The notes under the pieces were generated by a model, which saw only the letters and a list, made by a program, of their open reading frames with translations, was not told where the DNA came from and did not search any database. A stretch of DNA of 24,471 bases from a virus. The position numbers and the translations under genes were made by a program. How positions within the stretch are numbered: position 1 is the first letter of the stretch; each line of letters starts with the position of its first letter. This document shows positions 4,353 through 24,174 of the stretch, piece after piece. The DNA is taken from IMG/VR virus record IMGVR_UViG_3300020185_000253, positions 1-24,471 of that record; one strand, 5' to 3'.

Positions 4353-4376
4353 GGGGGGCAGCCAAAGCCACCCCCC
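4353..4376 (-). terminator. Hairpin upstream of the primase start
   Basis: In minus-strand RNA this forms a 10-bp stem (GGGGGGUGGC with GCUGCCCCCC) closed by a UUUG loop. Two of the pairs are U-G wobbles, so the plus strand would carry C-A mismatches. It is followed by AATATATC and then the primase ATG nine bases after the stem. It may attenuate the operon or control primase translation. There is no long U-tract. Confidence 0.55.
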
Positions 4377-4382
4377 TTTATA

Positions 4383-4520
4383 TTAATTAACAAGTAGGTA
4401 CAGCAGGTACAAGAACATAGCCCATCCACCTGACATTAAGCCCAACATTGCCCACTCTTTATGAGAAGGAAGTCTGTGCCGAATGTACCATCTTTTTAGC
4501 ATACGATAACGCCGATTCAT
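4383..4520 (-). CDS. Small membrane protein, 45 aa
   Basis: ATG 4520 follows the stop of the SSB-like gene by two bases (TAA-AA-ATG). The 45 residues have a very basic N-terminal half (MNRRYRMLKRWYIRHR) and one hydrophobic C-terminal segment of about 20 residues rich in Gly, Trp, Tyr and Leu. This predicts a single-pass membrane protein with the positive end in the cytoplasm. The next gene is the primase, beyond a hairpin. No family is recognised. Host-membrane interaction is possible but not shown. Confidence 0.6.
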   Translation of the reverse strand: MNRRYRMLKRWYIRHRLPSHKEWAMLGLMSGGWAMFLYLLYLLVN

Positions 4521-4522
4521 TT

Positions 4523-5260
4523 TTAGAATACGAGGTCTTCGTCTCCTCCCCCAAGAGGTTGCCCCGCTTTATCCGCTGCATCTGCAGGGCTAAGAGGGTG
4601 ACCAACTGGTGGGTTAGCAGCAATCTCGTCCCACGGTGCGGGGCCATCATTGCTTGCTCCCGTTTCTGGAGTTACGTCTGTCAGCAGAGCGTCGAGCCCT
4701 CCCGGTGCTGTACCAGCAGAGCTTTTAGGCTCAATACGCTCGTACTTTTCCTCAATTGCCAGCGTGTCTGGAGTGTCCATACGCTGAATAAAAGGACGGA
4801 ATGCTTGCTTAGGGAACATGCAGTAGTCCTTGTTATTGAGGATGAGTTTGACTCGTACGTCAACCCCTTTAAAAGCTTCGCCGAGCAAAGTCACAACGTT
4901 GCCGCCAAACTCGTCCCAAGTGTTACCACTAATGACCACCTTATCGGCGGGCAAGTAACAGGATAGGATGTGTTTGATGCGTCCGCTAAGACCCATCAGT
5001 GCGTTACGAACCTGCTTTTCAGGGTCTTTACCCCACTGCTTGGCCTGCATACGCTGACGTTCTACGTCTACCTCAAATTCGGTATGACGGAAACGACGAC
5101 CTGACGCGTCTTCAAAGTTAAACTTCAACACATTCCCTCCGGTTCCATCTTGACGCAAAGCTTCGAAGAATACTCCGAGCAAACGAACGTTTTGATTGAT
5201 GCCAGCAGGCATTGGGGCGTTAGACTTTGGAGTCTCAACTTGATTGTCGATGTTGTACAT
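4523..5260 (-). CDS. Probable single-stranded DNA-binding protein
   Basis: A 245-residue protein starting at ATG 5260, 13 bases after the Sak4-like gene; the longer open frame overlaps that gene and its extra residues look non-coding. The core (about 20-170) is a beta-rich domain. The C-terminal 70 residues are Pro/Gly/Ala/Asp-rich and end in the acidic tip GGGDEDLVF. A flexible tail with an acidic end and terminal Phe is the hallmark by which SSB proteins recruit partners. Its place between the RecA-fold ATPase and the primase supports this role. No conserved OB-fold motif was identified by eye, so the call rests on tail and context. Confidence 0.6.
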   Translation of the reverse strand: MYNIDNQVETPKSNAPMPAGINQNVRLLGVFFEALRQDGTGGNVLKFNFEDASGRRFRHTEFEVDVERQRMQAKQWGKDPEKQVRNALMGLSGRIKHILSCYLPADKVVISGNTWDEFGGNVVTLLGEAFKGVDVRVKLILNNKDYCMFPKQAFRPFIQRMDTPDTLAIEEKYERIEPKSSAGTAPGGLDALLTDVTPETGASNDGPAPWDEIAANPPVGHPLSPADAADKAGQPLGGGDEDLVF

Positions 5261-5273
5261 CTGTAGTGTTGGA

Positions 5274-5942
5274 TTAGTCAATGTAAATCTCGGACATGTC
5301 GAAGTCGATGACTTGTCCGCGAAGGTGAGGGCAGCGTGCGCCGGCCTCTGTCTCATCATCTGCCATGAAGCTGACCTTGAGGTTACCCTCGCCATCACGG
5401 AAGACATAACCAATAGCATCGCTATCAGCCATAATAAAGTTCTTCAGTTTGCCGCTGAGGTCAAGAGACGAGGTGTTAACCTTGATATCTGTCTCGTTAG
5501 CAATCAGAGTCTTCTTACGGTGACCGATGAGGATAACACCCTTGCTAGCCAAAGGCTTAAGTTGGGTAAGAATCTTCATCACGTTGTCACGTACCATAGC
5601 GTAGCCCTTACCGAAGTCAAGGTCGCCAATGGTTTTTACTCCCTCGGACTTACAAACAAACTCTTCCATCCAATTGACGATGTTGTCAATGGTGTCGAGC
5701 GCGATGTAGTCGTACTTCTCTTCTTTCTCACGGAGAGCTTTGAGAACTCCCATCACATCTTGCAACGAGTTGGTTTGTATCTTCATGGCTTCAACCATGT
5801 CGGTACCCTGCTCGGTGTCGATGATTAGGCAGTTGTCGAGGGTTGCAAGAGTCGTGGTTTTACCGACCTTGCTTTGACCGAATAGGGTCAACAGTCGCGG
5901 CGATTTACGGGTAGCCGGAGTCCGTTCAGTTGGTAGTTGCAT
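5274..5942 (-). CDS. Sak4-like RecA-fold ATPase (recombination/annealing)
   Basis: A 222-residue P-loop ATPase with Walker A GQSKVGKT (22-29), IIDTEQGTD after the second strand (40-48), Walker B YIALDTID (79-86) and a third strand ending GHRKK. The size, the motif spacing and the neighbourhood of an SSB-like gene fit Sak4-type phage recombinases, which bind ssDNA and help strand annealing with the cognate SSB. It starts three bases after the stop of the DnaB-like gene. A broader name, phage AAA/RecA-like nucleotide-binding protein, would also be safe. Confidence 0.8.
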   Translation of the reverse strand: MQLPTERTPATRKSPRLLTLFGQSKVGKTTTLATLDNCLIIDTEQGTDMVEAMKIQTNSLQDVMGVLKALREKEEKYDYIALDTIDNIVNWMEEFVCKSEGVKTIGDLDFGKGYAMVRDNVMKILTQLKPLASKGVILIGHRKKTLIANETDIKVNTSSLDLSGKLKNFIMADSDAIGYVFRDGEGNLKVSFMADDETEAGARCPHLRGQVIDFDMSEIYID

Positions 5943-5945
5943 GCT

Positions 5946-7473: not shown

Positions 7474-8696
7474 AGTGTTATGTCTAAGTGTGATAAGTCT
7501 ATATTACCACCCATAATATAGATGGCTTGGTCGAGTGACTGTACATGCTGAATATTGGTCGAGTTCTTCTGCCTCTTCTTCATCCACTTCTCGTCCTGAG
7601 TATCAGGCATATACAGGTTTACAATGTATCCGACCTTGCCCTCGACGAATCGAATGGCCCGGCCTGTACGTTGTACGTCTTGTCTGGGGGAACTGCTACC
7701 ACTAGAAATGATAGCGAGTTCTACACCCGGTACATCAAACCCCTCGTCTAATGCTCGCGCCGTGTTAATGATGCGTGCGGTGCCGTTGTTGAACTGCTCT
7801 AGCGCATTGCGTCGCTTTTTAGCGGGCATCTTGCTAGAGTAGGATACGGATTCGAGGGGTAGTTGAGCAGTTATTGCTTCAGCAAAGTCAACAGACTCGC
7901 TGAATGTAATCGTCTTGCGTTGTATCTCAGTGCATAACCTATACACACTGTCTACTTTAGACTGATTCATGTACAACATCTTCTTCCTTTTCGCCATGTT
8001 GCGATTGAAGTTGATAGCGTTGATACGAATCTGGTCTGCATCATCTACAGAACGACGTGCAAAGTTCTCGCACGCTTGCTCTGATTTGAGGCAGTTCATA
8101 GCTTGCCCGAAATCGTTACCAAACTTGCTAAAATAGTAAGAGAAATTCTTACTTAGCTTTTGGTACTCTTCTCGGTCGTGGTCATTTAGATACACGGGTA
8201 CGTTCAATACCCGAAATGGGCTGACGTATCCTGCACTCAGCGCTTCCTCCAACTTGACTGTGTCAATGATGGGTGCCTTTTGGCGAAGAAGATAGTCATT
8301 CCCGTCTTGTCGGGAGACTGTCGCTGTGAGACCCAATATCTTTTTGTAGGTGACGCGTTCGAAGACAGCGCCAAAGACATTAGTTGCGTAGTTATGAATC
8401 TCGTCTAAGATAAGCAAGTTGACGTCGTGCGCGTACTTAATAGCCGTGTTAACAACTAGCACAGTCACCTCGTCAAGATGCTCTACCTGCTCAGTCCACT
8501 GTGCTTTGAGGTGTATAGTAGGTACAATTACAAGCGTCTTGTTACCGGGCTGCTGTTTATTGAGCGCCTCGATAGCAAGTATAGCAGTATAGGTCTTACC
8601 GAAACCGGTACAAGCTTCGAGTGTACCTCTACACCCATTGCTTGCCCAGTTTCGTAAGATGCCTTTCTGCCTAGATAGACGCTTTTCGTCAATCAT
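7470..8696 (-). CDS. SF2 DNA/RNA helicase (UvsW/RecG-like)
   Basis: A 408-residue superfamily 2 helicase. It has motif I ACTGFGKT (28-35), motif Ia LVIVPT, motif II LDEIH (97-101), motif III GLTATVSR (122-129), motif IV TITFSES (262-268), motif V with ARALDEGFDVPG (313-324) and motif VI QRTGRAIR (342-349). It resembles phage UvsW-type helicases that branch-migrate recombination intermediates and dismantle stalled forks. The ATG lies within the last eight bases of the 77-residue gene upstream, so translation is probably coupled. There is no extra N-terminal domain. Confidence 0.88.
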   Translation of the reverse strand: MIDEKRLSRQKGILRNWASNGCRGTLEACTGFGKTYTAILAIEALNKQQPGNKTLVIVPTIHLKAQWTEQVEHLDEVTVLVVNTAIKYAHDVNLLILDEIHNYATNVFGAVFERVTYKKILGLTATVSRQDGNDYLLRQKAPIIDTVKLEEALSAGYVSPFRVLNVPVYLNDHDREEYQKLSKNFSYYFSKFGNDFGQAMNCLKSEQACENFARRSVDDADQIRINAINFNRNMAKRKKMLYMNQSKVDSVYRLCTEIQRKTITFSESVDFAEAITAQLPLESVSYSSKMPAKKRRNALEQFNNGTARIINTARALDEGFDVPGVELAIISSGSSSPRQDVQRTGRAIRFVEGKVGYIVNLYMPDTQDEKWMKKRQKNSTNIQHVQSLDQAIYIMGGNIDLSHLDITL

Positions 8697-8922: not shown

Positions 8923-8934
8923 TGGGTTTGTTTT

Positions 8935-12137: not shown

Positions 12138-12138
12138 G

Positions 12139-12377: not shown

Positions 12378-13256
12378 TTAAAATATGTATCTAATTGTGT
12401 TCCAAGGAATTGCCTTGTCATGCAGATGCACGAACTTATTAATGGCTTCCCTTTTAAGCTGTCTCTTGTAACGAACGTTATGCCCTCCATACTGAGACTG
12501 CTTGGGTTCTTGGAGTTCTGTATTCCAAAGCAAATGCTCGCCCGGTAAATTGTTTTCCAAGTTGTACTTGTGCTTAGCTTCTTCGTGTGTCAACATGATA
12601 CACTCGGCGTGCACGAGTTTTTTGGCATCATCAGAAATGCCGTAGTTGAGCTGATTAAACAGCTCTGTGTAGTCATCCTCCCAACCATTGTATAATATGA
12701 TTGGACTAAAATTTACATGGATGTCATACCCTGCATCTATAAATCCGTCGATAGCAGCAATGCGTTCTGCAATACTAGCAGTGTTTGGTTCTACGATGGA
12801 GGATATGCGCTGAGGCATTAATGAAAAACGAATGCGTATCTTGCCCTCAGGGTTAAAGTTGAGGAAGTTAAGCGGTACCATTTTGGTAGCTAAGCTTCCC
12901 ATTGCAAACTCGTGGTCACGAAAGAACTCGAAGATACGAGTCCAGTCATGGAACTTGGAGTGCAAAGCAAAATCCTCATTGCAAGAAATATCATACGACA
13001 CAAAGTGCGCATGAGTTTGGTTGGGCTTCTCTACATTGGCATAGAAAAGTACATGTCTATCAATAGCTTGCAGAATTTCTTCTGTGTTGCCGGCAATAGT
13101 AAGTCCCTTGGCGCTATGCCTTTTCATGTAGCAGTAGCTACAATTAAATAGGCAGCCGTACCCAAAAGATGGGCTAATGTAGTCAGTAGAACGCCCACTG
13201 TAGCGAATGTCCATAGACTTACGTTTTACTCGGCTAATTTGCGCCTTAGAATTCAT
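12378..13256 (-). CDS. Radical SAM protein, spore photoproduct lyase-like
   Basis: A 292-residue protein with the radical SAM cysteine motif CLFNCSYC (35-42; Cys35, Cys39, Cys42), which would bind a [4Fe-4S] cluster and cleave S-adenosylmethionine. The preceding FGYG and the YCYMKR that follows resemble SplB-type lyases, which repair thymine dimers by direct reversal. The rest reads as a partial TIM barrel, with the strand-and-charge pattern of this superfamily. In this context a DNA repair role for phage genomes is plausible, but tRNA or nucleotide modification cannot be excluded. The ATG overlaps the sigma-factor stop as ATGA, so the two are probably made together. Confidence 0.75.
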   Translation of the reverse strand: MNSKAQISRVKRKSMDIRYSGRSTDYISPSFGYGCLFNCSYCYMKRHSAKGLTIAGNTEEILQAIDRHVLFYANVEKPNQTHAHFVSYDISCNEDFALHSKFHDWTRIFEFFRDHEFAMGSLATKMVPLNFLNFNPEGKIRIRFSLMPQRISSIVEPNTASIAERIAAIDGFIDAGYDIHVNFSPIILYNGWEDDYTELFNQLNYGISDDAKKLVHAECIMLTHEEAKHKYNLENNLPGEHLLWNTELQEPKQSQYGGHNVRYKRQLKREAINKFVHLHDKAIPWNTIRYIF

Positions 13257-14328: not shown

Positions 14329-14358
14329 GTAGGGCGACGTCTTGTCTCGCCGCCCTAC
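14329..14358 (-). terminator. Hairpin after the metallophosphoesterase gene
   Basis: An 11-bp stem in minus-strand RNA (GUAGGGCGGCG with CGUCGCCCUAC), with an 8-base loop and one G-U wobble. It lies between the metallophosphoesterase stop and the next gene's ATG. It has no long U-tract, so it may be a weak terminator or an RNA-processing/stability structure that sets off the replication operon. Confidence 0.55.
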
Positions 14359-14379: not shown

Positions 14380-15642
14380 TTATCTTAACGTGAAGTCAAA
14401 CACGTTGGGCCTTCCGTCACCATTATTCTCAAGAATAGTAATGCCGGAGGTACTAGACCAGCCATTAGACTCGGAGTACCAGTTACCTGTGAAGATTGGC
14501 GCCACTGAGATAGAGCGATAGTTCGCTTGGTCCCAGTGAATGTTGTCAATCTTTTTGTACTGAGTCTTACCTCGTCGGCTGTGGAAGTGGCCGCCCAAAA
14601 GGACGTTATAAACACCTTGCTCACCGTACTCCCAGAATGTCTGAACCATATCGTTCTTAGACAAACCGAGGTGGTTGTGGGTAAAGATGTACCGAATTCC
14701 ATCTATGTTCTCGCTAACGAGAGCATGGCTGAACTTGACATCAAAGCCGGATTGCTCTAGCATGAATGCAAGTATCTGTGCAACACCCCCTTGGCTGTCA
14801 ATGTCTGCTTTGATAGTAGTTCTATCATGGTTACCAGACACGACTGACACCCCCTTCAAATTGTTAATCTGTTCGAGGAAGTCCCGGAGGATGTTGTAGG
14901 CAATAATTGTGACATTGGCACCATACCCACCGTATTCGAGTTGTTGCCAACTATTCATATGGTTAAGTCCGGTGAAGGTCTCAATAAAATCGCCAAGCAT
15001 CGCTACCTCAACTTTCTTGTAATTCAATCGGTTGATTTGCAATGCAGCTTGGTTCAAACGGTCAACAACTACATCGTAGCTGAAGTCGTCTGTCTGAAGC
15101 ATATCGGTTACCTTAGCGCCAATGTGGAAGTCTGAAATAACTGCCACACCGGTACCGGCTCCCTTTGCTTTACGAGCCTTGACCTTACGGACAGAGGCAA
15201 CGTAAGCTTCTTGAACATCAGTTAAGTCAATATTAGCAGGCCCGATAGGGTCTAGCTTAACCTTGACTTGATAGTTTGTCTTATCACCGGCATCCCACGA
15301 ATTACAAGTCCACGAGCTGACTTGCCACTTAGTGGTGTCAACTTCAAAGAACTCAATAGCTTCGTCGAGGCTTGTGATAGACTGACTACCCTTATATGAA
15401 AACTCTTTCGAGCCGTCTGCGTTAGCTTGAACAGATGTTAAATTGTCAGCAGTAACAGAAGATTTGCTGTTATCTACTACTTTTTTAAGGCTACTAGTAC
15501 CTGCTTTAACAGAAGCAGCCATCTTTCGAATTGTACGTTCTGTTCTAGTAGTACCTGCAGCAATAGCAAGTCGGGCAATCTCAGCGTTTGAAGCTTCGGG
15601 ATTGTCCTTGACTAGTTTTGTAACTAGTTTACGTGTACTCAT
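14380..15642 (-). CDS. Metallophosphoesterase with N-terminal HTH-like segment
   Basis: A 420-residue calcineurin-like phosphoesterase. Dimetal motifs appear in order: ISDFHIG (169-175, Asp171, His173), MLGDFIE (215-221, Asp218), SGNHDR (269-274), FTHNH (320-324) and LGGHFHSR (349-356). The first 45 residues (NPEASNAEIARLAIAAG, then TERTIRKMA) look like a helix-turn-helix, so the enzyme may act on DNA, like SbcD/Mre11-type nucleases. No SbcC-like partner is visible in this window, and a phosphatase role is possible. It stands between a cluster of small membrane proteins and the replication operon, followed by a hairpin. Confidence 0.8.
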   Translation of the reverse strand: MSTRKLVTKLVKDNPEASNAEIARLAIAAGTTRTERTIRKMAASVKAGTSSLKKVVDNSKSSVTADNLTSVQANADGSKEFSYKGSQSITSLDEAIEFFEVDTTKWQVSSWTCNSWDAGDKTNYQVKVKLDPIGPANIDLTDVQEAYVASVRKVKARKAKGAGTGVAVISDFHIGAKVTDMLQTDDFSYDVVVDRLNQAALQINRLNYKKVEVAMLGDFIETFTGLNHMNSWQQLEYGGYGANVTIIAYNILRDFLEQINNLKGVSVVSGNHDRTTIKADIDSQGGVAQILAFMLEQSGFDVKFSHALVSENIDGIRYIFTHNHLGLSKNDMVQTFWEYGEQGVYNVLLGGHFHSRRGKTQYKKIDNIHWDQANYRSISVAPIFTGNWYSESNGWSSTSGITILENNGDGRPNVFDFTLR

Positions 15643-16363: not shown

Positions 16364-16428
16364 AAAATTGGTGGTTTGGTGGTTTGAATGGTAGTGGGCT
16401 TATTGGAGGAGGGGGTAGGCACTACTTA

Positions 16429-16449
16429 GGGACGGACATAGTCCGCCCC
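16429..16449 (-). terminator. Hairpin between the basic exported protein and the 132-aa gene
   Basis: A 9-bp stem in minus-strand RNA (GGGGCGGAC with GUCCGUCCC, loop UAU) containing one G-U wobble; the plus strand would have an A-C mismatch. About 45 bases follow the gene stop before the stem. It is followed by UAAGUAG rather than a U-tract, so termination is uncertain. Confidence 0.5.
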
Positions 16450-16494
16450 CTTTCGTGTCTTTCTCTCACACCCGTGTCTCTACCACAACAGGTA

Positions 16495-16716
16495 CTATTG
16501 TCGGCTGCGCAATCTGCGCGCATGCCGACGAGACTTTCTACTTGGTTTGTTGCCATGCCAAGGCACTATAGCTTGAGAAGGTACGCGACTAGCACGTACA
16601 GTTTTAACCTTGACAGCTTTAACTTTGGGCTTAGCCCATCCGCACTGCGCATTACAAGTAAGCATGCAGGCGCACATTATTGCTGCCAAAGCAGCGAGTT
16701 TAATTAACTGCTTCAT
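16495..16716 (-). CDS. Basic exported protein, 73 aa
   Basis: A signal peptide of about 23 residues (MKQLIKLAALAAIMCACML) with a probable cut at CNA|Q, the A|Q site typical of Bacteroidota. The mature part is short and extremely basic (Lys/Arg-rich throughout, ending RKSRRHARRLRSRQ). Cys21 is a weak lipoprotein candidate. A small secreted cationic protein could bind nucleic acid, lipopolysaccharide or the envelope; the function is unknown. It is preceded by the hairpin-rich block. Confidence 0.6.
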   Translation of the reverse strand: MKQLIKLAALAAIMCACMLTCNAQCGWAKPKVKAVKVKTVRASRVPSQAIVPWHGNKPSRKSRRHARRLRSRQ

Positions 16717-17140
16717 AACGAGTTATTAAAATTAGACGAGGAACAATTTCCTTCGCCGAAGACTAGCGCAGCTGCCGAAGCAGCCACTACCCAAGGACTT
16801 TTTGTGTCGGGTATACAGGGCACAGTTAACCTACTGAGTGAGGACTCTTCGCGAGAATGAGTGAATATCGACGCCCCCCACGATACGACATATCGACGAT
16901 GCAACTGGGGGACTTCCTTTTAACGCAAGGCGGCGTCTTATTTCGTAACAAGCAAACAAGAAAGACCGATAACACCTCTGAATTCGTTACCTAGCTCGAG
17001 GCCGTGTTATTAGCCGACACGCTGGGGTGCGTGCTACCCCCCTCTCATCAGGGGATGGAGCGCAACTAAGTCCTGCAGGACGAAGTCACGACATCTTGCG
17101 TTGCGGTGCAAGCTGTGCCACCAAGCCGGACTCTTGCGAG
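16717..17140 (-). other. ORF-poor, hairpin-rich region (candidate structured RNA)
   Basis: About 420 bases without a convincing gene. On the minus strand it holds many stems: a GCAA-loop stem ACTC/GAGT just after the upstream gene; the palindrome GTCCTGCAGGAC; ATAACA/TGTTAT paired across about 30 bases near 16970-17010; CCCCC/GGGGG enclosing CGATA/TATCG at 16874-16911; and GCTGC-TTCG-GCAGC near 16770. A weak TTG frame (16713-16904) ends with an ATGA overlap to the next gene but has unnatural composition. No tRNA, tmRNA or known riboswitch motif was recognised. It may be a long structured leader, a noncoding RNA or a replication site. Confidence 0.45.
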
Positions 17141-17502: not shown

Positions 17503-17547
17503 AAAAAAACACCCCCGCTCAATCGCGTTAGGTCATGAACGAGGGTG
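17503..17547 (-). terminator. Intrinsic terminator after the 155-aa gene
   Basis: The best terminator in the window. In minus-strand RNA an 11-bp stem (17537-17547 with 17510-17520, including CACCCUCG/CGGGGGUG) has two wobble pairs and a 16-base loop. It is followed at once by seven U residues (17503-17509). It lies 24 bases after the stop of the upstream gene. Confidence 0.8.
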
Positions 17548-17570
17548 CATACTGCTGGATGGCAGGCAGG

Positions 17571-18038
17571 TTAGAATCCTGCAATGTCAGCCAAAGAAGT
17601 TTCCTCCGAGCTGGAAGATTCTTCCTCTTGGCTGGCCACAGGGTGACCGTTCCAACGGAAAGCCTGCTTTACAGTAGACTCAAAGTTGGGAGCATCTTCG
17701 GATGCAGGCACGAAACAGCTGTACGTGTCAACCGTACGCTGAACTACATTGCCTGCAATGCTATCCTCGATAACATAGGGCTCTACGCTGCGAGAAACAA
17801 CTGTACCCACGATAGCAGTGCCAACGGGGGCGCTGTACAAGTGGTTGTACGGGCTGTCCACGCCTGATTCCCAAGCATTGAGGGTTTGCGTAGTGCTGTC
17901 TCCAAGAGCATTTACAGTAGCTCCGGTGACAGGGTGTGTCATCTGGGCGAAAGTAGTGCAGTTGAGGGTGACCGTCTTAAAGTTGCGGCCTGACTTGTCT
18001 TGTCCTTCACGGACGTTGGTAACTTCGTTGAACGTCAT
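17571..18038 (-). CDS. Hypothetical protein with SSB-like acidic tail, 155 aa
   Basis: A 155-residue protein whose start reads like an OB-fold first strand pair (FNEVTNVREG, then GRNFKTVTLN). The C-terminus is a Glu/Ser-rich tail (residues about 137-148) ending LADIAGF, similar in style to SSB tails with acidic residues and a terminal Phe. It may be a second single-strand binding protein or an SSB mimic, but homology is not shown. It is a single-gene unit flanked by hairpins at 18080 and 17503, so it is probably transcribed separately, perhaps strongly. The leader has no Shine-Dalgarno sequence. Confidence 0.65.
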   Translation of the reverse strand: MTFNEVTNVREGQDKSGRNFKTVTLNCTTFAQMTHPVTGATVNALGDSTTQTLNAWESGVDSPYNHLYSAPVGTAIVGTVVSRSVEPYVIEDSIAGNVVQRTVDTYSCFVPASEDAPNFESTVKQAFRWNGHPVASQEEESSSSEETSLADIAGF

Positions 18039-18079: not shown

Positions 18080-18113
18080 AACCCCCGACAGTCGGTTCAT
18101 GCTGCCGGGGGTT
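18080..18113 (-). terminator. Terminator hairpin after the 65-aa gene
   Basis: A 12-bp stem in minus-strand RNA (AACCCCCGGCAG with CUGUCGGGGGUU, 10-base loop) with one G-U wobble. The end of the stem plus following bases read UUUUC, a short U-tract. It closes the four-gene overlapping cluster to its right. Confidence 0.7.
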
Positions 18114-18121
18114 GAGTTGTC

Positions 18122-18319
18122 CTAGAATGAGGGTAGATACTTGAGCGTAAGTACTTGCATCATGTCCCTATCTTGGAAGATAAGAAAAGCGTCCCGCAGG
18201 TCTTGTTGCTGGTCTGCTGGCATCGCAGCTTTGAGCTGGATGTAGAGATTACGCTCGTAAGGAGTGAGTCCTTGAATACGAGCTTTAACGTTGTCAATCC
18301 GTGTCTTGTATCTTGACAT
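18122..18319 (-). CDS. Hypothetical helical protein, 65 aa
   Basis: A small, charged and mostly helical protein (RIDNVKARIQGLTPYERN, then LRDAFLIFQDRDMM). The ATG lies 26 bases inside the end of the upstream gene, so the two are probably translated together. It is the last gene of a four-gene cluster ending at the hairpin 18080-18113. I recognise no family. Confidence 0.6.
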   Translation of the reverse strand: MSRYKTRIDNVKARIQGLTPYERNLYIQLKAAMPADQQQDLRDAFLIFQDRDMMQVLTLKYLPSF

Positions 18320-19363: not shown

Positions 19364-19392
19364 ATAGTTAACACCTATCTTCTAATAAAGTT

Positions 19393-19415
19393 GGATACTC
19401 ACCTCTACTACAAGC
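19393..19415 (-). promoter_or_regulatory. Repeated element, copy 7 (candidate promoter)
   Basis: Reads GCTTGTAGTAGAGGTGAG followed by TATCC on the minus strand. It shares the AGTAGAGGT core and final TCC with six other copies to the right. It lies between the hairpin at 19457 and ATG 19363. Confidence 0.5.
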
Positions 19416-19456
19416 AAAAGCACGTGCAGTAGGCACGTTGGAGGAGAGGTTAAAGT

Positions 19457-19491
19457 GTAACCCCCACAACCGCGAAGGCTGCAGGGGTAAC
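19457..19491 (-). terminator. Hairpin after the first lipoprotein gene
   Basis: A long stem in minus-strand RNA: 15 positions with one mismatch and three wobble pairs, loop UUCGC. It begins three bases after the stop of the lipoprotein gene. It is followed by ACUUUAACC, a weak U-tract. It likely ends or protects the lipoprotein transcript. Confidence 0.6.
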
Positions 19492-19494
19492 GGG

Positions 19495-19863
19495 TTAGTT
19501 AATAAAGATGATGAGCCAAGTGTCGTAGGTGACAAGGCCTGAGAGTACTGACTCGGTTTCGTTGTAGTCAAGCGTCTCTGCAGCTTCTGTGTTGTAGAAC
19601 ACCTTGAGCGATTGGTCTACAAAAGCATACTGATAGCTGATGTCATTGTCGTTGTTTGGAAACACTTCGAGAAGCGAGTCATTTACAAAGACACAGTAGC
19701 CTTCTCCAAGCACGTCTGTTTCGTTTTCAATTTGAAAATCATAAGCAGCACCGTAGGTGATACCGAAGTCGTTGATGGAGGAGTACATTGGCCCCATTGG
19801 GTCAATTTGAGTACAGGAGGTAAGCACGCAGATGACTGCGAGTATTGAGAAGAACTTTTTCAT
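19495..19863 (-). CDS. Lipoprotein, 122 aa
   Basis: A signal peptide with lipobox LTSC (residues 14-17) and Cys17 as the lipid-modified residue, preceded by MKKFFSILAVICV. The mature part is acidic and beta-rich (DFQIENETDVLGEGYCVFVN, VFPNNDNDISYQYAFVD). Thr-Gln follows the Cys. It would sit in a membrane, probably the periplasmic side. Small phage lipoproteins often give superinfection exclusion, which is a reasonable guess here, but there is no direct motif. The leader is A/C-rich (CTTCAAACAACTCACA). Confidence 0.75.
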   Translation of the reverse strand: MKKFFSILAVICVLTSCTQIDPMGPMYSSINDFGITYGAAYDFQIENETDVLGEGYCVFVNDSLLEVFPNNDNDISYQYAFVDQSLKVFYNTEAAETLDYNETESVLSGLVTYDTWLIIFIN

Positions 19864-19917
19864 TGTGAGTTGTTTGAAGTAATATACGAATTATTGTCCG
19901 GATGGCAAGGAAAGAGA

Positions 19918-19941
19918 GTACCCCCGCCGAAGCGAGGGTAC
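19918..19941 (-). terminator. UUCG-capped hairpin after the 114-aa gene
   Basis: A 10-bp stem in minus-strand RNA (GUACCCUCGC with GCGGGGGUAC) closed by a C(UUCG)G tetraloop, with one U-G wobble. It starts six bases after the upstream stop and is followed by UCUCUUUCC. The very stable tetraloop appears only in the minus-strand RNA. Confidence 0.65.
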
Positions 19942-19947
19942 CTAGTG

Positions 19948-20292
19948 TTAGAAAGGAAGGGGAGCTTCCATGTTGCTGTGATACATGATAGCTTCGTAGA
20001 AGTCTTCTGCAATTTGTGCAGCGTTGACATACACTTTCTTCTCATAGAAGTCCATGTACGGCTTTTCCTCTACTCTTTGCCTGCACATGTTAGCTACCGT
20101 GAGCACACGATGGTGATACGGCTCGGTACTGGGCCGGAACAGCATGCCTTCAACCAAGATGTTGATTTGAAACAAAGCTGAACGAGCATGGTAGCCTTTC
20201 TGCTCGGGCACATCTCTGTAGATATACCCGATAGTCTTGCTGATGATAGCTTCTGCAGCTGTCATGTTGTCGATGGTGTCACGCATACCCAT
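19948..20292 (-). CDS. Hypothetical protein, 114 aa
   Basis: The start overlaps the stop of the 38-residue gene as TAATG. A soluble, mostly helical protein with many aromatic and charged residues (MTAAEAIISKTIGYIYRDV, EKKVYVNAAQIAEDFYEAI). No signal peptide or known motif is seen. It forms a two-gene unit with the 38-residue gene, ended by the UUCG hairpin. Confidence 0.65.
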   Translation of the reverse strand: MGMRDTIDNMTAAEAIISKTIGYIYRDVPEQKGYHARSALFQINILVEGMLFRPSTEPYHHRVLTVANMCRQRVEEKPYMDFYEKKVYVNAAQIAEDFYEAIMYHSNMEAPLPF

Positions 20293-20408
20293 TAGTTCTT
20301 GGGATTTATGGTGACAACGCCGTTAGACACAGAGAAGATGCGAGGACGGACAGTAGGTGTGACTGTTTGCACGTTGGTTGGCTTGTTGCCGGGAATGTTG
20401 AGATACAT
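20292..20408 (-). CDS. Hypothetical small protein, 38 aa
   Basis: ATG 20408 follows a pyrimidine-rich then A/C-rich leader (TACAAACACACATTACC), like other leaders here, and the TAA stop overlaps the next ATG as TAATG. The 38 residues are Pro/Thr/Val-rich (MYLNIPGNKPTNVQTVTPTV) and end with a strand-like RIFSVSNGVVTI. Length, leader and coupling support it as a real gene. The function is unknown. Confidence 0.6.
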   Translation of the reverse strand: MYLNIPGNKPTNVQTVTPTVRPRIFSVSNGVVTINPKN

Positions 20409-20527
20409 GGTAATGTGTGTTTGTATGAGAGAATAAAGAGAAAAAAGAAAGCAGTTTGTCTTCGTGCTTAGGAATACGTCGTTGCCCTGTACAGGACTAT
20501 ATGTACGACCTTTCTATGTCTGCACCC
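20409..20527 (-). promoter_or_regulatory. Leader with stem-loop and polypyrimidine tract
   Basis: This stretch holds a GTCGT/ACGAC stem (20478-20509, with an inner GTACA/TGTAC alternative). It is followed by a pyrimidine run, mostly T and C, on the minus strand (20422-20448) ending TTTATTCTCTC. The run resembles the TTTATTCT that precedes the repeated element elsewhere, but the AGTAGAGGT core is absent. It probably contains the start of the transcript for the 38- and 114-residue genes. Confidence 0.35.
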
Positions 20528-20638
20528 CTACCTCACCGGCAGCATAAGGAGTGACTGACTCTTGCAGTTTTTCAGCAAGTTTGCCGTCGTGTTTACTAGG
20601 TCTGTGGAATCACGACCAATACCACAGTTGCCGGACAT
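20528..20638 (-). CDS. Possible small protein, 36 aa
   Basis: ATG 20638 starts inside the end of the 53-codon gene (29-base overlap) and runs to TAG 20528. The product begins MSGNCGIGRDSTDLVNTTAN and has a natural composition. Overlaps of 17-44 bases also occur between other genes here. No family is known and there is no other support. Confidence 0.35.
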   Translation of the reverse strand: MSGNCGIGRDSTDLVNTTANLLKNCKSQSLLMLPVR

Positions 20639-20771
20639 ATTTTCGGAGAGTCCATACTCCTGCTGATACACAGCAATTTCTGCGCAGCTCAGCAGCTACG
20701 ACTTGTTCGTCTGGTATCTCGTCGAACCACTGAGAGTCTGCCCTTTCGGTTGCAGACACCGAGTCTCCCAT
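20610..20771 (-). CDS. Possible small protein with HTH-like segment, 53 aa
   Basis: ATG 20771 is preceded by an A/C-rich leader (ACCACCACACCCACC and onward), like confirmed genes here. The 53 residues are acidic at first (MGDSVSATERADSQWFDEIP). They then form a helix-turn-helix-like stretch (DEQVVAAELRRNC, then VWTLRKYVRQLW). It is the best-supported small frame in an otherwise gene-poor 600-base stretch. A tiny regulator is possible; no family was recognised. Confidence 0.45.
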   Translation of the reverse strand: MGDSVSATERADSQWFDEIPDEQVVAAELRRNCCVSAGVWTLRKYVRQLWYWS

Positions 20772-20772
20772 G

Positions 20773-20916
20773 CTAGACTAAGGGTAAAGGTGGGTGTGGT
20801 GGTACTAAACTGTCTGCGGACAGAGTTCCCAACCACGTGCCCTCTTGCCGCAGCAAGTATGCGAGTAAGTCAGTGCTCCAAAGGCTGAGCCAAGGGATGA
20901 GGGAATGTCCCGACAC
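20773..20916 (-). CDS. Possible small protein, 47 aa (GTG start)
   Basis: GTG 20916 to TAG 20773, ending one base before the ATG of the next small frame. The product is Leu/Trp/Pro-rich (SLIPWLSLWSTDLLAYLL near its start). It would fill the gap exactly, but it has a non-ATG start and overlaps several hairpins (such as CTTGC/GCAAG and CTGTC/GGACAG), so it could be untranslated leader. Confidence 0.25.
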   Translation of the reverse strand: MSGHSLIPWLSLWSTDLLAYLLRQEGTWLGTLSADSLVPPHPPLPLV

Positions 20917-20921
20917 TGAAC

Positions 20922-21005
20922 TTACGAATGAGTGCAGCCCATAGTAGGACTGACTAACTCCGCCGTGGCGGTTGGAGTAGAAACGTGCGAATTAACCACG
21001 AACAT
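20922..21005 (-). CDS. Possible peptide, 27 aa
   Basis: ATG 21005 to TAA 20922 encodes a 27-residue peptide (MFVVNSHVSTPTATAELV at the start) between the terminator at 21041 and the GTG frame. It overlaps a CTCC/GGAG hairpin. A chance frame is quite possible; it is listed because the four small frames tile 21005-20528 almost without gaps. Confidence 0.2.
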   Translation of the reverse strand: MFVVNSHVSTPTATAELVSPTMGCTHS

Positions 21006-21040
21006 GAGCCATTTAAGGGAAATGACTGAACCTTGCAATA

Positions 21041-21065
21041 AAAAGTCCCCTTTCGCTTAGCGGGG
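21041..21065 (-). terminator. Terminator-like stem with T-tract
   Basis: In minus-strand RNA, CCCC and GGGG pair around GCUAAGCGAAA (which holds CGC/GCG), followed by ACUUUUUAUU. The stem is weak but GC-only, and the U-tract is good. It would end transcription coming from the 107-residue gene or from the element at 21142. Confidence 0.5.
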
Positions 21066-21141
21066 TATAGCGGCCTTTATTGGTTGCGGCGTTACCATCC
21101 ATGACATTGGTTGCAGCATGGACTCTGCTATAAATGAGATT

Positions 21142-21165
21142 GGAGTCTCATCTCTACCACAGAGC
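21142..21165 (-). promoter_or_regulatory. Repeated element, copy 6
   Basis: Reads GCTCTGTGGTAGAGATGAGA then CTCC on the minus strand. It keeps the TCTGT, GTAGAG and final TCC of the consensus, with G-to-A at the GGT position. No ATG gene starts soon after it. Confidence 0.4.
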
Positions 21166-21207
21166 ACCAAGACCCCCGTTAGGGAGCCTTGGGCTGTGGC
21201 GCGTGAA

Positions 21208-21531
21208 TCACGCAAGTTTGCACCAATAGCGCAGCGTGCCATCGTCGGACTCGTCATCGCGCATTTCGCGGAAGTTGACCTTGATGTCGAGCTTTTTTGT
21301 AGCCTCATTGCCGAGGTACAAGCTGGGGTCATCTTCGTCTTGCGTCATCATCTCTTTGACAGAGTCAGCGAGGCTGCTCATTTCGATGTTAACAAGAACA
21401 GTGTCTTCGGTAGAGTTACCAAGCACAGTCTCTTGACCGGGAATAGTAGCAACGCCGAAAATGTAAAACTTGCCGTTCTTAGCAGATTGCTTGACGCGGC
21501 TGATTTGGGTAATTGTAGCTGGAGTAGCCAT
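21208..21531 (-). CDS. Hypothetical protein, possible OB-like, 107 aa
   Basis: A 107-residue soluble protein. The N-terminus (ITQISRVKQSAKNGKFYIFG) resembles the first strands of the 155-residue gene at 17571-18038 in layout: strand, basic turn, Gly, strand. A helical acidic middle (SLADSVKEMMTQDEDD) and two strands follow (LDIKVNFREMRD, TLRYWCKLA). No family is recognised; an OB-fold-like nucleic-acid binder is a possibility. It is preceded by a repeated element (21579-21602) and by a hairpin. Confidence 0.65.
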   Translation of the reverse strand: MATPATITQISRVKQSAKNGKFYIFGVATIPGQETVLGNSTEDTVLVNIEMSSLADSVKEMMTQDEDDPSLYLGNEATKKLDIKVNFREMRDDESDDGTLRYWCKLA

Positions 21532-21578
21532 GATAAATGTATTGGGTTAATGAGAAAAAGTTGTCAATAAGCGAAAGT

Positions 21579-21602
21579 GGAATCTCACCTCTAATTGAGC
21601 GT
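21579..21602 (-). promoter_or_regulatory. Repeated element, copy 5
   Basis: Reads ACGCTCAATTAGAGGTGAGA then TTCC on the minus strand. It lies directly after the hairpin at 21605 and 47 bases before ATG 21531. It shares the TAGAGGTGA core and TCC end. Confidence 0.5.
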
Positions 21603-21604
21603 AT

Positions 21605-21629
21605 GAGCACACCCATCACGGATGTGCCC
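21605..21629 (-). terminator. Hairpin after the second lipoprotein gene
   Basis: A 10-bp stem in minus-strand RNA (GGGCACAUCC with GGGUGUGCUC, loop GUGAU) with two wobble pairs. It lies eight bases after the lipoprotein stop. The repeated element begins three bases later. Confidence 0.6.
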
Positions 21630-21637
21630 TTACGTTG

Positions 21638-21973
21638 TTATTGCAACGGCTCGAATGTGCCGATGGCAGAGAAGTATTTGCCGAGAAGCTCGTTATGTTG
21701 CCTGTATGTGTCATCATGCAGGTGTTGGAAGTAAATGGTGTTGCCTTTGCTGTCAATCAGCTGGAAACACCTGTCTTCCAAGAATACTATGGTGTATGAG
21801 TCTACTACGTCGTTCTCGTAGTTGTAAATAGACGCGAGGCATTGCTCTGGAGCCAATAGCACATTGACGTGTGAATGCTCGCATTCGAAGTCGGCTGTGT
21901 AGAACGGTACTTGGCTTGAGCATGAGGTAAGAAGCGCCGCCCAAAACGCGCAGAAGAGAATAAAATGTTTCAT
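21638..21973 (-). CDS. Lipoprotein, 111 aa
   Basis: A signal peptide with lipobox LTSC (residues 15-18) after MKHFILFCAFWAAL. Cys18 would be lipid-modified, and Ser-Ser-Gln follows. The mature part is beta-rich with many aromatic and His residues (DSYTIVFLEDRCFQLID, NTIYFQHLHDD). ATG 21973 is used; the longer frame upstream crosses a hairpin. It is the second LTSC lipoprotein in the window, without evident similarity to the first beyond the signal. A role at the host envelope, such as exclusion of other phages, is possible. Confidence 0.75.
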   Translation of the reverse strand: MKHFILFCAFWAALLTSCSSQVPFYTADFECEHSHVNVLLAPEQCLASIYNYENDVVDSYTIVFLEDRCFQLIDSKGNTIYFQHLHDDTYRQHNELLGKYFSAIGTFEPLQ

Positions 21974-22028
21974 TGTTTGAAGGGAATAACGGACTTGTCC
22001 GAAAAGAAATTTGAGAATGGAGAATATA

Positions 22029-22052
22029 GCCCCTGCACTTATGTGCAGAGGC
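22029..22052 (-). terminator. Hairpin after the 45-aa membrane protein gene
   Basis: A 10-bp stem in minus-strand RNA (GCCUCUGCAC with GUGCAGGGGC, loop AUAA) with one U-G wobble. It is followed by UAUAUUCUCC, the same GGGGCTATATTCT context as the hairpin at 22692. Here the AGTAGAGGT core is missing. Confidence 0.6.
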
Positions 22053-22059
22053 CTAAGGG

Positions 22060-22197
22060 TTAACGTTTGTTGATGATGTCTTGGATACCATGCCACAGCA
22101 TTGCACCCGCAGCAGCGAGTACAAACATGCAACCGATGATAACAAGGACGCCGAGCATATTGCCGACGTCAAGAAGTAGAGATTCTTGTTCGTTCAT
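22060..22197 (-). CDS. Small membrane protein, 45 aa
   Basis: ATG 22197 lies 17 bases after the hairpin that covers the end of the previous gene. A short acidic start (MNEQESLLLD) precedes a hydrophobic segment of about 22 residues (MLGVLVIIGCMFVLAAAGAM), then a short polar end with Asp-Asp-free DIINKR. It is a single-pass membrane protein. With the neighbouring 35-residue membrane peptide it might form a pair, for example holin-like or envelope-modifying, but lysis genes are not otherwise seen here. Confidence 0.6.
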   Translation of the reverse strand: MNEQESLLLDVGNMLGVLVIIGCMFVLAAAGAMLWHGIQDIINKR

Positions 22198-22214
22198 GAT
22201 AGAAAGGGATTGAA

Positions 22215-22241
22215 CTTACCCGCGCAATGAGCGCAGGTAAG
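22215..22241 (-). promoter_or_regulatory. Hairpin over the stop codon of the 35-aa gene
   Basis: An 11-bp stem in minus-strand RNA (CUUACCUGCGC with GCGCGGGUAAG, loop UCAUU) with one U-G wobble. It includes the gene's stop codon, and the next ATG is 17 bases beyond. There is no U-tract, so RNA processing, stability or translation control is likelier than termination. Confidence 0.5.
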
Positions 22242-22323
22242 CGATGAGAGATGGCACGAGCATGAGCACTGTGAGTGCTGTGCCCGCGATGACGTTGAGT
22301 TGGTAAGGAGTGAAGTCTTGCAT
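22216..22323 (-). CDS. Small membrane peptide, 35 aa
   Basis: ATG 22323 to TAA 22216. A polar start (MQDFTPYQLN) is followed by one hydrophobic segment of about 20 residues (VIAGTALTVLMLVPSLIAYL) and a basic end RSLRG. A single membrane helix is clear. Its start is 13 bases after the upstream hairpin, and its stop is buried in the next hairpin. The function is unknown. Confidence 0.6.
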   Translation of the reverse strand: MQDFTPYQLNVIAGTALTVLMLVPSLIAYLRSLRG

Positions 22324-22334
22324 GAGAAAGGGGT

Positions 22335-22631
22335 TTATCCCCGCTGCGGTTGTGCAGCGAGGATGTTGAGTTTGCGGAGCTTTGCGGTGTAGATGCAAGC
22401 GTACTGCTGTGTGCAGGGAACTTGCGCGATGAGGCCGAGGAAGTTGTGGTACACGACGAAGTGGCCTGTGTTTGTGTAGGCAGACTCGAGCAGTGGTACT
22501 TCCATCTGGTCTACTTTGTTTGCGCGCAGCTTGCTGAGCAGAGACTCTAGGATTGCAGGGTTCTGGATTACACCGTCAATGGTGTTGTTATCTGCACCTG
22601 TGCTTGCGATGAATGACTTGATTGTTTGCAT
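22335..22631 (-). CDS. Hypothetical protein, 98 aa
   Basis: A soluble protein with a helical N-terminal half (DGVIQNPAILESLLSKLRA) and a strand-turn-strand-helix C-terminal half (GHFVVYHNFLGLIAQV, then YTAKLRKLNIL). The 3' end overlaps a hairpin. The leader ends GCAATAAAAAACAAGATTC, like that of the gene at 23516. An element copy lies 34 bases upstream of the start. No family is recognised. Confidence 0.6.
   Translation of the reverse strand: MQTIKSFIASTGADNNTIDGVIQNPAILESLLSKLRANKVDQMEVPLLESAYTNTGHFVVYHNFLGLIAQVPCTQQYACIYTAKLRKLNILAAQPQRG
22337..22364 (-). promoter_or_regulatory. Hairpin over the end of the 98-aa gene
   Basis: An 11-bp stem in minus-strand RNA (AUCCUCGCUGC with GCAGCGGGGAU) with one U-G wobble and a 6-base loop. 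It covers the last codons and meets the stop. AACCCCUUUCUC and then the next ATG follow. Confidence 0.5.
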
Positions 22632-22665
22632 GAGAATCTTGTTTTTTATTGCAACGAACGAGCTT

Positions 22666-22688
22666 GGCGCTTACCTCTACTTCAGAAT
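22666..22688 (-). promoter_or_regulatory. Repeated element, copy 4
   Basis: Reads ATTCTGAAGTAGAGGTAAGC then GCC on the minus strand, preceded by TAT so that the unit is TATATTCTGAAGTAGAGG. It lies three bases after the hairpin at 22692 and 34 bases before ATG 22631. Confidence 0.55.
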
Positions 22689-22691
22689 ATA

Positions 22692-22715
22692 GCCCCACCG
22701 CGTTAACGGCAGGGC
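22692..22715 (-). terminator. Hairpin after the 87-aa gene
   Basis: A 10-bp stem in minus-strand RNA (GCCCUGCCGU with GCGGUGGGGC, loop UAAC) with three wobble pairs. It starts six bases after the stop and is followed by UAUAUUCUG, which is also the start of the repeated element. Confidence 0.6.
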
Positions 22716-22721
22716 ATATAA

Positions 22722-22985
22722 TCATTTGGTCAAGTCCATTGATGTGACGTTGACACCGACTGCACCACACAGTTCAATGATGGTGCTTTGGAGCAGAGGA
22801 GTGAACTTTTCTTGATAGAACAGCTCACCCGTGAAGTCAAACAGCATGACATAGTCGTTGATGGACTCACGTTCAATGACACATTTGTGTGCAGTCATGA
22901 CAGAGCCATCGCTAAGTGTTATGCCTTCGTCTAAGACATAGCTGAGGTTGCGTAGGCGTGAAAGTTGTTTAGATAAGATAGACAT
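22722..22985 (-). CDS. Hypothetical protein, 87 aa
   Basis: ATG 22985 is chosen, 15 bases after the hairpin at 23001; the longer frame crosses that hairpin. A basic helical start (MSILSKQLSRLRNLSYV) is followed by strands (YVMLFDFTGELFYQEKF), a helix (LLQSTIIELCGAVG) and a last strand (VNVTSMDL). This beta-hairpin, helix, strand order recurs in the neighbouring small genes. No family is recognised. Confidence 0.6.
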   Translation of the reverse strand: MSILSKQLSRLRNLSYVLDEGITLSDGSVMTAHKCVIERESINDYVMLFDFTGELFYQEKFTPLLQSTIIELCGAVGVNVTSMDLTK

Positions 22986-23000
22986 GGGAGAAAGGGTTGT

Positions 23001-23027
23001 GACCCCGCACTGTTGTAGTGCAGGGTC
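23001..23027 (-). promoter_or_regulatory. Hairpin before the 87-aa gene
   Basis: An 11-bp stem in minus-strand RNA (GACCCUGCACU with AGUGCGGGGUC, loop ACAAC) with one U-G wobble. CACAACCCUUUCUCCC and the ATG follow with no U-tract, so it may be a leader or processing hairpin rather than a terminator. Confidence 0.5.
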
Positions 23028-23034
23028 GATGAGA

Positions 23035-23259
23035 TTATATGGCGTGAGGTATGTTGATGCACAGCATTTGTGCAATGTTCATGCGGTTGCAGCCGGCGAG
23101 AACGCGATAGAACACGTTATATTGGACAACCTTGTCGAGCAGAACTGTGCCATCGGCTTTGGAGAAGATGGTGACAGTATTGTCGGACAGGGTGCGCGCT
23201 TCCATACGAACATAGATGTTGTTGGGCTTGCAAGAGTAGAAGAAAGAGAGAGTATCCAT
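23035..23259 (-). CDS. Hypothetical protein, 74 aa
   Basis: ATG 23259 is 15 bases after the upstream hairpin. The product is beta-rich at first (NNIYVRMEARTLS, NTVTIFSKADGTVLLDKVV), then helical (FYRVLAGCNRMNIAQML). It has four Cys residues. It fits the strand-turn-strand-helix pattern shared by neighbours. There is no signal peptide. The function is unknown. Confidence 0.6.
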   Translation of the reverse strand: MDTLSFFYSCKPNNIYVRMEARTLSDNTVTIFSKADGTVLLDKVVQYNVFYRVLAGCNRMNIAQMLCINIPHAI

Positions 23260-23274
23260 AAGAGATATGGTTTT

Positions 23275-23300
23275 GGGGCCACAGCATATGCCATGACCCC
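23275..23300 (-). promoter_or_regulatory. Hairpin before the 74-aa gene
   Basis: An 11-bp stem in minus-strand RNA (GGGGUCAUGGC with GCUGUGGCCCC, loop AUAU) with three wobble pairs. AAAACCAUAUCUCUU and the ATG follow. There is no U-tract. On the plus strand the wobbles become C-A mismatches. Confidence 0.5.
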
Positions 23301-23306
23301 GGATGA

Positions 23307-23516
23307 TTATTCAGAGATGAAGTTGCAGTCGTGAAGGTCAGACTTGAGAGCAGTGAGTTCTGCATCTGAAATCTCCTCGGTAGCAAGTTCTTGTCCATAG
23401 AAACCACAAAGGGTTACCGTGGCAGTTGTTCCGTCCAAAGAGTGTGTTACAACTACATCTTCAATGTGAGCGGAAGAATCAAGCATGTGCTCGGTAATAA
23501 GGTCGTTGAATGACAT
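23307..23516 (-). CDS. Hypothetical acidic protein, 69 aa
   Basis: An acidic 69-residue protein: a helical start (FNDLITEHMLDSSAH), a beta-hairpin (HIEDVVVTHSLDGTTATVTL, then GFYGQELATEE) and a C-terminal helix (DAELTALKSDLHD). The leader ends GCAATAAAAACATATTCTC before ATG, nearly the same as at 22631. A repeated element lies 32 bases upstream. No family is recognised. Confidence 0.6.
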   Translation of the reverse strand: MSFNDLITEHMLDSSAHIEDVVVTHSLDGTTATVTLCGFYGQELATEEISDAELTALKSDLHDCNFISE

Positions 23517-23548
23517 GAGAATATGTTTTTATTGCCATTAATGAGAAT

Positions 23549-23571
23549 GGTTTTCAACTCTACTTGAGAAT
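23549..23571 (-). promoter_or_regulatory. Repeated element, copy 3
   Basis: Reads ATTCTCAAGTAGAGTTGAAA then ACC on the minus strand, preceded by TTT. It lies immediately after the hairpin at 23575, sharing the T-tract TTTATTC, and 32 bases before ATG 23516. Confidence 0.55.
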
Positions 23572-23574
23572 AAA

Positions 23575-23597
23575 GGGGCGCACGCAGTGTGCACCCC
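23575..23597 (-). terminator. Terminator after the 78-aa gene
   Basis: A 9-bp stem in minus-strand RNA (GGGGUGCAC with GUGCGCCCC, loop ACUGC) with one U-G wobble, followed directly by UUUAUUC. It lies seven bases after the gene stop. The U-tract overlaps the beginning of the repeated element. Confidence 0.7.
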
Positions 23598-23604
23598 TGA
23601 TTCA

Positions 23605-23841
23605 TTAGACAGTTTCGTAGTAACGTACATAGCCGAGTTTCGACAGGTCAGCAACAACGAGGTTGCGTGTTTGCTCGTCTAAGTGGAACTCACATGTGGA
23701 CTTGTAGTCGTTGTTCATGCAGAGCAGCACATACTTTCCTGCATCTTTGTCGAAGGATACGTTGAATTGTGTGGTCTTGGATGCAAAGTGAACGTGAGAT
23801 ACGACAGCGTTTGCAGTTTTGCGAGAAGTAGGGAGAGACAT
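23605..23841 (-). CDS. Hypothetical protein, 78 aa
   Basis: ATG 23841 is preferred because it follows an A/C-rich leader (CTCAAAAACACAACACAA); a GTG ten codons upstream would make that leader coding. A basic Ser/Thr start (MSLPTSRKTANAVV) precedes strands (TQFNVSFDKD, KYVLLCMNNDY, STCEFHLDE), a helix and a final strand (YVRYYETV). It resembles its small neighbours in layout. The function is unknown. Confidence 0.6.
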   Translation of the reverse strand: MSLPTSRKTANAVVSHVHFASKTTQFNVSFDKDAGKYVLLCMNNDYKSTCEFHLDEQTRNLVVADLSKLGYVRYYETV

Positions 23842-24123
23842 TTGTGTTGTGTTTTTGAGAGAGTAGTGCACACTAATTACATAGCACTACAATGTATGGT
23901 AAGAGAAAGAAGGGGAGAAAGGGGAGAATACATAGGTAGGAAGCCTACACCATACTCTCGCCCTTACAATAGCAACTAACAGTTACATCCTCATTCCACA
24001 TCATTCCTTACACCCTTTAGCGTAAGTACTCTGTGGTATCCTGAGGCAAGCATCGTATGTTCTGAGCATCTCGCAGTAGCTTGTAGACGAGTGTGCTTGC
24101 AATTAAATGCTATATACGAGGTT
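23842..24123 (-). other. Gene-poor stretch with leader and two very short frames
   Basis: No gene above 30 codons. On the minus strand it holds two tiny coupled frames: 24069-24001 (22 residues) and 24004-23945 (19 residues), which overlap by four bases; both are weak. A polypyrimidine run near 23897-23930 contains the direct repeat CTCCCCTTT and TATTCT. A small GTAGG/CCTAC hairpin lies near 23940. It may be a long leader for the 78-residue gene, transcribed from element copy 2. Confidence 0.3.
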
Positions 24124-24146
24124 GGATGTTTTACCTCTATACAGTA
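24124..24146 (-). promoter_or_regulatory. Repeated element, copy 2
   Basis: Reads ACTGTATAGAGGTAAAACAT then CC on the minus strand. The last part (AGAGGTAAAACATCC) is identical to copy 1. It lies seven bases after the hairpin at 24153. The next long gene is far downstream at 23841. Confidence 0.5.
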
Positions 24147-24152
24147 GTAATA

Positions 24153-24174
24153 GTAGACCCTGTTAGGGGCCTAC
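24153..24174 (-). terminator. Hairpin after the 64-aa gene
   Basis: An 8-bp stem in minus-strand RNA (GUAGGCCC with GGGUCUAC, 6-base loop) with one G-U wobble. It lies 13 bases after the stop. UAUUACU follows, merging with the repeated element. Confidence 0.5.

Follow-up and report, generated by a model that had tools for sequence, protein, structure and literature searches.

Terminator-like hairpins after stop codons in a crAss-like phage genome fragment, and whether their G-U wobbles are a signal

Hairpins that fold better in the RNA of one strand than in that of the other raise the question as to whether the G-U pairs behind this asymmetry are themselves a signal or simply accumulate where one strand alone has to fold. 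The question arises in a virus record of 24,471 bases whose genes lie on the minus strand, analysed here over its whole length and referred to as the window, for which a preliminary description had listed sixteen intergenic hairpins, each with G-U pairs and each said to pair only in minus-strand RNA. Selection for a one-directional RNA structure, recognition of the wobbles by a protein or RNase, and avoidance of cruciform DNA had been proposed as reasons.

Judged from its protein sequences, the phage can be assigned to the Crassvirales (crAss-like phages), in which the nearest relatives of its primase and DNA polymerase are found; an RIIA-like protein, a DnaB-like helicase and a sigma-region-4 protein are also encoded in the window, and one helicase also matches that of Cellulophaga phage phi14:2. 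A megablast search with the complete window found no match among phage records, and its relatives are IMG/VR contigs with about 80% polymerase identity. Based on the known host range of Crassvirales, the host phylum is presumably Bacteroidota; the habitat, if the contig series is any guide, is guessed to be marine. The radical SAM protein encoded by 12378-13256 has a Pfam match to the spore photoproduct lyase family (SPL, 5.9e-28) and is possibly a DNA photoproduct repair enzyme carried by the phage.

The hairpins stand out clearly from background. An unbiased scan of both strands for gapless stems of at least 8 pairs with loops of 3-10 nt yields 18 strong stems (-15 kcal/mol or lower), all of them on the minus strand of the window: 16 are intergenic, and two, at 1771 and 20204, lie in coding sequence. 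The plus strand has none, and dinucleotide shuffles give 0.8 and 1.0 strong stems for the minus and plus strands, with maxima of 3 and 4. All 16 first-listed sites form stem-loops of 9-13 pairs with at least one G-U each in minus-strand RNA, including two that are real hairpins yet fall outside the limits of the scan (17510, with a 14-nt loop, and 24153, at -13.4 kcal/mol), and the scan adds two further intergenic hairpins with G-U pairs at 170-195 and 21167-21192. The claim that pairing occurs "only" in minus-strand RNA is too strong, since the antisense strand folds at every site; what stands is that the sense strand folds better, by a mean of 5.5 kcal/mol (-20.2 versus -14.7 kcal/mol), the difference being only 2 kcal/mol at 18080. 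The recurrent CCCU/GGGG pattern is present at five sites (17510, 19457, 19918, 22692 and 23001, as first numbered), with CCU at three more (22029, 22215 and 22337). An Rfam search for a known RNA family returned one chance match, far below threshold.

Eleven of the 18 hairpins begin 5-8 nt past a stop codon (mode 6), while the next start may be as close as 8 nt or hundreds of nt away; this narrow spacing on one side and variable spacing on the other tie the hairpins to gene ends. The window has 19 gene junctions that span 25 nt or more, and 15 of them carry a hairpin. All lie on the minus strand. The hairpin at 170-195, unlisted earlier, follows the RIIA-like gene (202-2481) by 6 nt, with arms GGGGGCCGGT/GCCGGTCCCC and 2 G-U pairs, and has an ortholog at 8359-8384 of relative G003; that at 4353-4376 (GGGGGGTGGC/GCTGCCCCCC; 2 G-U) lies 6 nt past the stop of 4383-4520 and 8 nt upstream of the primase start. 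Two are set further from the stop, at 14329-14358 (21 nt past 14380-15642; 1 G-U) and 16428-16450 (44 nt past 16495-16716; 2 G-U, 1 terminal). The hairpin at 17509-17548, after 17571-18038, combines CCCT/GGGG arms and its 14-nt loop with a T7 tract and, on these sequence features, is probably the sole clear classical intrinsic terminator of the window. Further along are 18080-18113 (8 nt past the stop of 18122-18319; 1 G-U; antisense nearly as stable), 19460-19488 (6 nt past 19495-19863; ACCCCTGCAGCC/GGTTGTGGGGGT; 3 G-U including a tandem UG) and 19917-19942 (5 nt past 19948-20292; UUCG loop; 2 G-U, 1 terminal), the last with orthologs in relatives G002 and G004. The second previously unlisted hairpin, 21167-21192, lies 15 nt past the stop of 21208-21531 (2 G-U); it is joined by 22028-22053 (6 nt past 22060-22197; 2 G-U, 1 terminal) and 24152-24175 (12 nt past 24188-24382; 2 G-U, 1 terminal). 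Three others, 21605-21629 (8 nt past 21638-21973; 3 G-U), 22692-22715 (6 nt past 22722-22985; GCCCTGCCGT/GCGGTGGGGC) and 23574-23598 (6 nt past 23605-23841; 1 U-G), are followed by a TAGAGGT motif or, at the third, a TAGAG motif.

The remaining hairpins sit between closely spaced genes. Those at 23001-23027 (7 nt past 23035-23259; 1 U-G) and 23275-23300 (6 nt past 23307-23516; 3 G-U) both lie 15 nt upstream of the next start, and two overlap the last codons of a gene: 22337-22364, within the final codons of 22335-22631 and 13 nt upstream of the next start (1 U-G), and 22214-22242, which covers the final codons and stop of 22216-22323 (2 G-U, 1 terminal). Short-gap genes, in the window (22985-23001, 22323-22337 and 22197-22214, minus strand) as in relatives, have a pyrimidine-rich leader, e.g., ACAACCCTTTCTC-ATG, and no Shine-Dalgarno sequence.

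The hairpins are most likely unidirectional 3'-end stem-loops, terminator-like but mostly devoid of a U-tract, that define mRNA 3' ends or shield them. A stem built on GC pairs would form in the mRNA just 3' of the codon at which the ribosome stops, and would thereby set or protect the 3' end of its gene's message; 3'-end formation or protection, as well as the enzyme acting there, are putative roles. At the U-tract site 17510 the hairpin is probably an intrinsic terminator, while at the U-tract-less sites, which are the majority, it would more likely block a 3'-5' exonuclease after downstream termination or cleavage, the nearest alternative for these sites being that it partly terminates transcription, or makes it pause, between co-transcribed genes. 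Because the sense RNA alone would have to fold, C-to-U and A-to-G changes that leave a G-U pair would be tolerated and accumulate, which would account for the strand asymmetry; where convergent genes both need the hairpin in their RNAs, a perfect stem would be expected. The proposal of a one-directional RNA structure is supported by the 18:0 strand asymmetry, the position after stop codons, the retention of structure under sequence change and the perfect stems of convergent junctions. Several observations count against the 3'-end reading: some hairpins leave just 8-16 nt to the next start, too little for a promoter, so that not all can be full terminators; the ribosome would open the two hairpins that overlap coding sequence; and internal wobbles, tandem UG steps and mid-stem placement exceed the null expectation described below. 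The 30 nt downstream of the hairpins contain little G and more C (11.5% G, 27.5% C), but as the upstream flank is G-poor too, this rut-like character is not specific.

A simpler possibility, tenable but held with distinctly less confidence, is that all are ordinary intrinsic terminators which the host RNA polymerase uses, their U-tracts being weak in a GC-richer phage. Their location, their GC-rich stems and the one clear U7 case fit, and hairpins with U-tracts do occur at gene ends in crAss001, phi14:2 and other control phages. However, while the GC-rich stem 3' of a gene is there, the U-tract directly after it mostly is not: four of the 18 hairpins have at least 4 U in the next 6 nt, and the tract is clear at 17510 only. 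On average these 6 nt hold 2.2 U in the window versus 3.7 in the control phages, several window sites having none. Downstream U is alike at short-gap and long-gap junctions (P=0.61) and therefore does not separate terminators from stabilisers. The 9-13 bp stems of the window are too short for classical RNase III sites, whose duplex reaches about 20 bp or longer, although they may be short non-classical ones.

Comparison with relatives shows that structure is kept while sequence turns over: orthologous junctions retain the hairpin, and both stem sequence and wobble positions change. At the primase junction, compared over five genomes, 100% of cells pair and 3 pairs are changed on both sides, against 50-70% pairing when the partner arm is slid as a control; the stem covaries across the five, and other orthologous junctions behave likewise. 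In this stem the wobbles are pairs 7 and 8 of the window sequence, but pairs 6 and 9 of that in most relatives; the place of the wobble is therefore not fixed, which weakens the idea that a protein or RNase recognises a wobble at a set position. At the 22337 junction a U-G at about pair 5 is retained in three genomes (the window and two relatives) while other pairs have changed.

Perfect Watson-Crick stems at these sites in related phages had been named as a refutation of the proposal. None of the 47 distinct co-directional hairpins of the group is wobble-free, where an energy-matched null gives about 6. Between convergent genes, in contrast, perfect stems are found at 26552-26581 of relative G001 (AGGGGGCCGG/CCGGCCCCCT) and 13048-13072 of G003 (GGGCCCGG/CCGGGCCC), as well as at 14806 of the weakly related G009; stems able to fold on both strands, in the manner of bidirectional terminators, are thus present at two or three convergent junctions in relatives and at none inside the window. 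This fits a rule, drawn from two or three cases, under which a junction that needs both strands to fold admits no wobbles. The contrast is weaker in the controls crAss001 and phi14:2, whose convergent stems have one G-U each on one strand, and more distant relatives have nearly perfect stems, among them a co-directional one with 10 perfect outer pairs (G008 44599). The gene adjoining the convergent junction, thyX, offered no route to further convergent junctions, being common to unrelated viruses; these were used as control phages instead.

How unusual the wobbles are can be judged against random stems matched in length, loop and energy and folded on one strand only. The 23 non-redundant hairpin families carry 48 G-U pairs in total, against 42.6±4.4 expected (P=0.13, not significant), and the presence of a wobble in every family reaches only P=0.08. 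Selection for the wobble itself is therefore unsupported: random stems of equal strength have nearly as many G-U pairs, largely the outcome that had been set as its refutation, so that no special selection is needed to explain the wobble content, which is probably not a new signal. A first wobble with U in the 5' arm and G in the 3' arm, reported for twelve hairpins, recurs in about 11 of the 16, but there is no orientation rule, internal U-G and G-U being split 21:21 across the 23 families. Gene-end hairpins of the control phages have 15% G-U and 3 of 29 are wobble-free, compared with 21% and 0 of 27 in this group; as terminators of Bacillus cereus have about 5% G-U pairs (PMC5381666), phage stems in general, and not just those of this group, appear to be wobble-rich.

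What remains unexplained, and keeps a weaker form of the wobble proposal alive, is where the wobbles sit. An internal wobble is present in all 23 families (P=0.008), tandem 5'-UG/3'-GU steps number 7 versus 1.2 expected (P=0.0002), and 25 wobbles versus 14.2 expected fall at pairs 6-9 (P=0.0008); these three tests were chosen post hoc, and as families, the CCCU stems in particular, may share descent, their P values may be too small. An explanation by selection on the wobbles, in which a protein or RNase of phage or host reads a mid-stem U-G or tandem UG, or in which the wobble prevents the hairpin from functioning in antisense RNA, would account for this excess and for the U-G kept at the 22337 junction, but is unlikely in view of the expected total, the even orientation, the shifting positions between orthologs and the co-directional stem of G008. 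Its more specific form is doubtful to a somewhat greater degree: a mid-stem wobble, often a tandem UG above a clamp of 4-6 bp, would be a selected mark, perfect stems being reserved for convergent junctions. Were it true, the mark would make the hairpins one-directional or recognisable by an RNA-processing factor or RNA polymerase of the phage's own.

A promoter-like motif, (A)GTAGAGGTRAR, recurs on the minus strand ahead of early genes, in most cases 9-11 nt past a hairpin (24402-24411, 24130-24139, 23553-23562, 22670-22679, 21584-21593, 21147-21156 and 19398-19407); with at most one mismatch it has 13 matches versus 5.2 expected. At the equivalent place, G002 and G004 have GGGGGAGCT, and this replacement suggests that promoter specificity was switched between the window and these two relatives. 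There is no convincing gene in the roughly 800 nt of 20409-21207 (minus), which are predicted to fold heavily and include blocks of 83-85% identity to G002 and G004; this is a candidate structured non-coding RNA with no match in Rfam. A second conserved non-coding stretch of 424 nt, 16717-17140 (minus), is partly common to G002 and G004.

In phage N4, promoter hairpins of the virion RNA polymerase form in the template strand at the start site, with a 5-7 bp stem and a 3-nt loop. It is very unlikely that the hairpins of the window are such elements, even though the TAGAGGT motif follows several of them and relative G001 encodes what its sequence indicates is an unusually large, fused crAss-type virion RNA polymerase: many hairpins lack the motif, their position tracks the stop codon and not the start, their stems of 9-13 bp and loops of 3-14 nt differ, and their wobbles favour the sense RNA and leave A-C mismatches in the template strand, which is the wrong polarity. 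The G001 assignment follows from matches of a single 4,982-aa protein (11598-26543, L016/L017) to gp47, gp50 (with its DFDVD motif) and gp49 of crAss001, its parts thus being three separate proteins there; this genome region lies outside the window, and the C-terminal part, used as a search query, matched its own contig only. Least probable of all is avoidance of perfect stems as cruciform formers or blocks to DNA replication, which is not needed and, despite the absence of perfect stems among the 47 co-directional hairpins (P=0.08 after removal of redundancy), fits poorly with the perfect palindromes that the same group tolerates between convergent genes and, as a DNA-level model, does not predict a wobble polarity favouring sense RNA.

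Read as 3'-end stem-loops, the hairpins amount to a dense and testable map of where mRNAs may end in an uncultured crAss-like phage, and suggest a rule, wobbles where one strand folds and perfect stems where both must. They also carry a caution: strand-specific wobbles alone are no evidence for a new signal. Our literature search found little on transcript termination in crAss-like phages, and nothing direct on crAss-like or U-tract-less Bacteroidota terminators.

Among known systems, intrinsic terminators, including bidirectional ones, share with these hairpins the GC-rich stem, short loop, position after the stop codon and common stem at convergent junctions, and wobble is the main tolerated intermediate in them (PMC5381666); they differ in that the hairpins described here mostly lack a U-tract, have 18-21% G-U versus about 5% in Bacillus cereus (PMC5381666), and in some cases sit between close genes. 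Hairpins of Escherichia coli that are GC-rich and without a U-tract have been read as ends trimmed back after downstream Rho-dependent termination (PMC13289151); the likeness extends to the lack of a strong U-tract and to the G-poor, C-richer downstream flank (PMC13289151), but the present set belongs to a phage and occupies most of its spaced gene junctions, and a role for Rho is putative. REP elements are likewise intercistronic 3' UTR hairpins, whereas no repeat sequence is shared here beyond the loose CCCU/GGGG similarity. The promoter hairpins of phage N4 resemble the set in lying near early genes and in the virion RNA polymerase carried by relatives, and differ in wobble polarity, in their shorter stems and in the linkage to stop codons seen here. 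The kind of element is known, and the set is a new, dense example of it.
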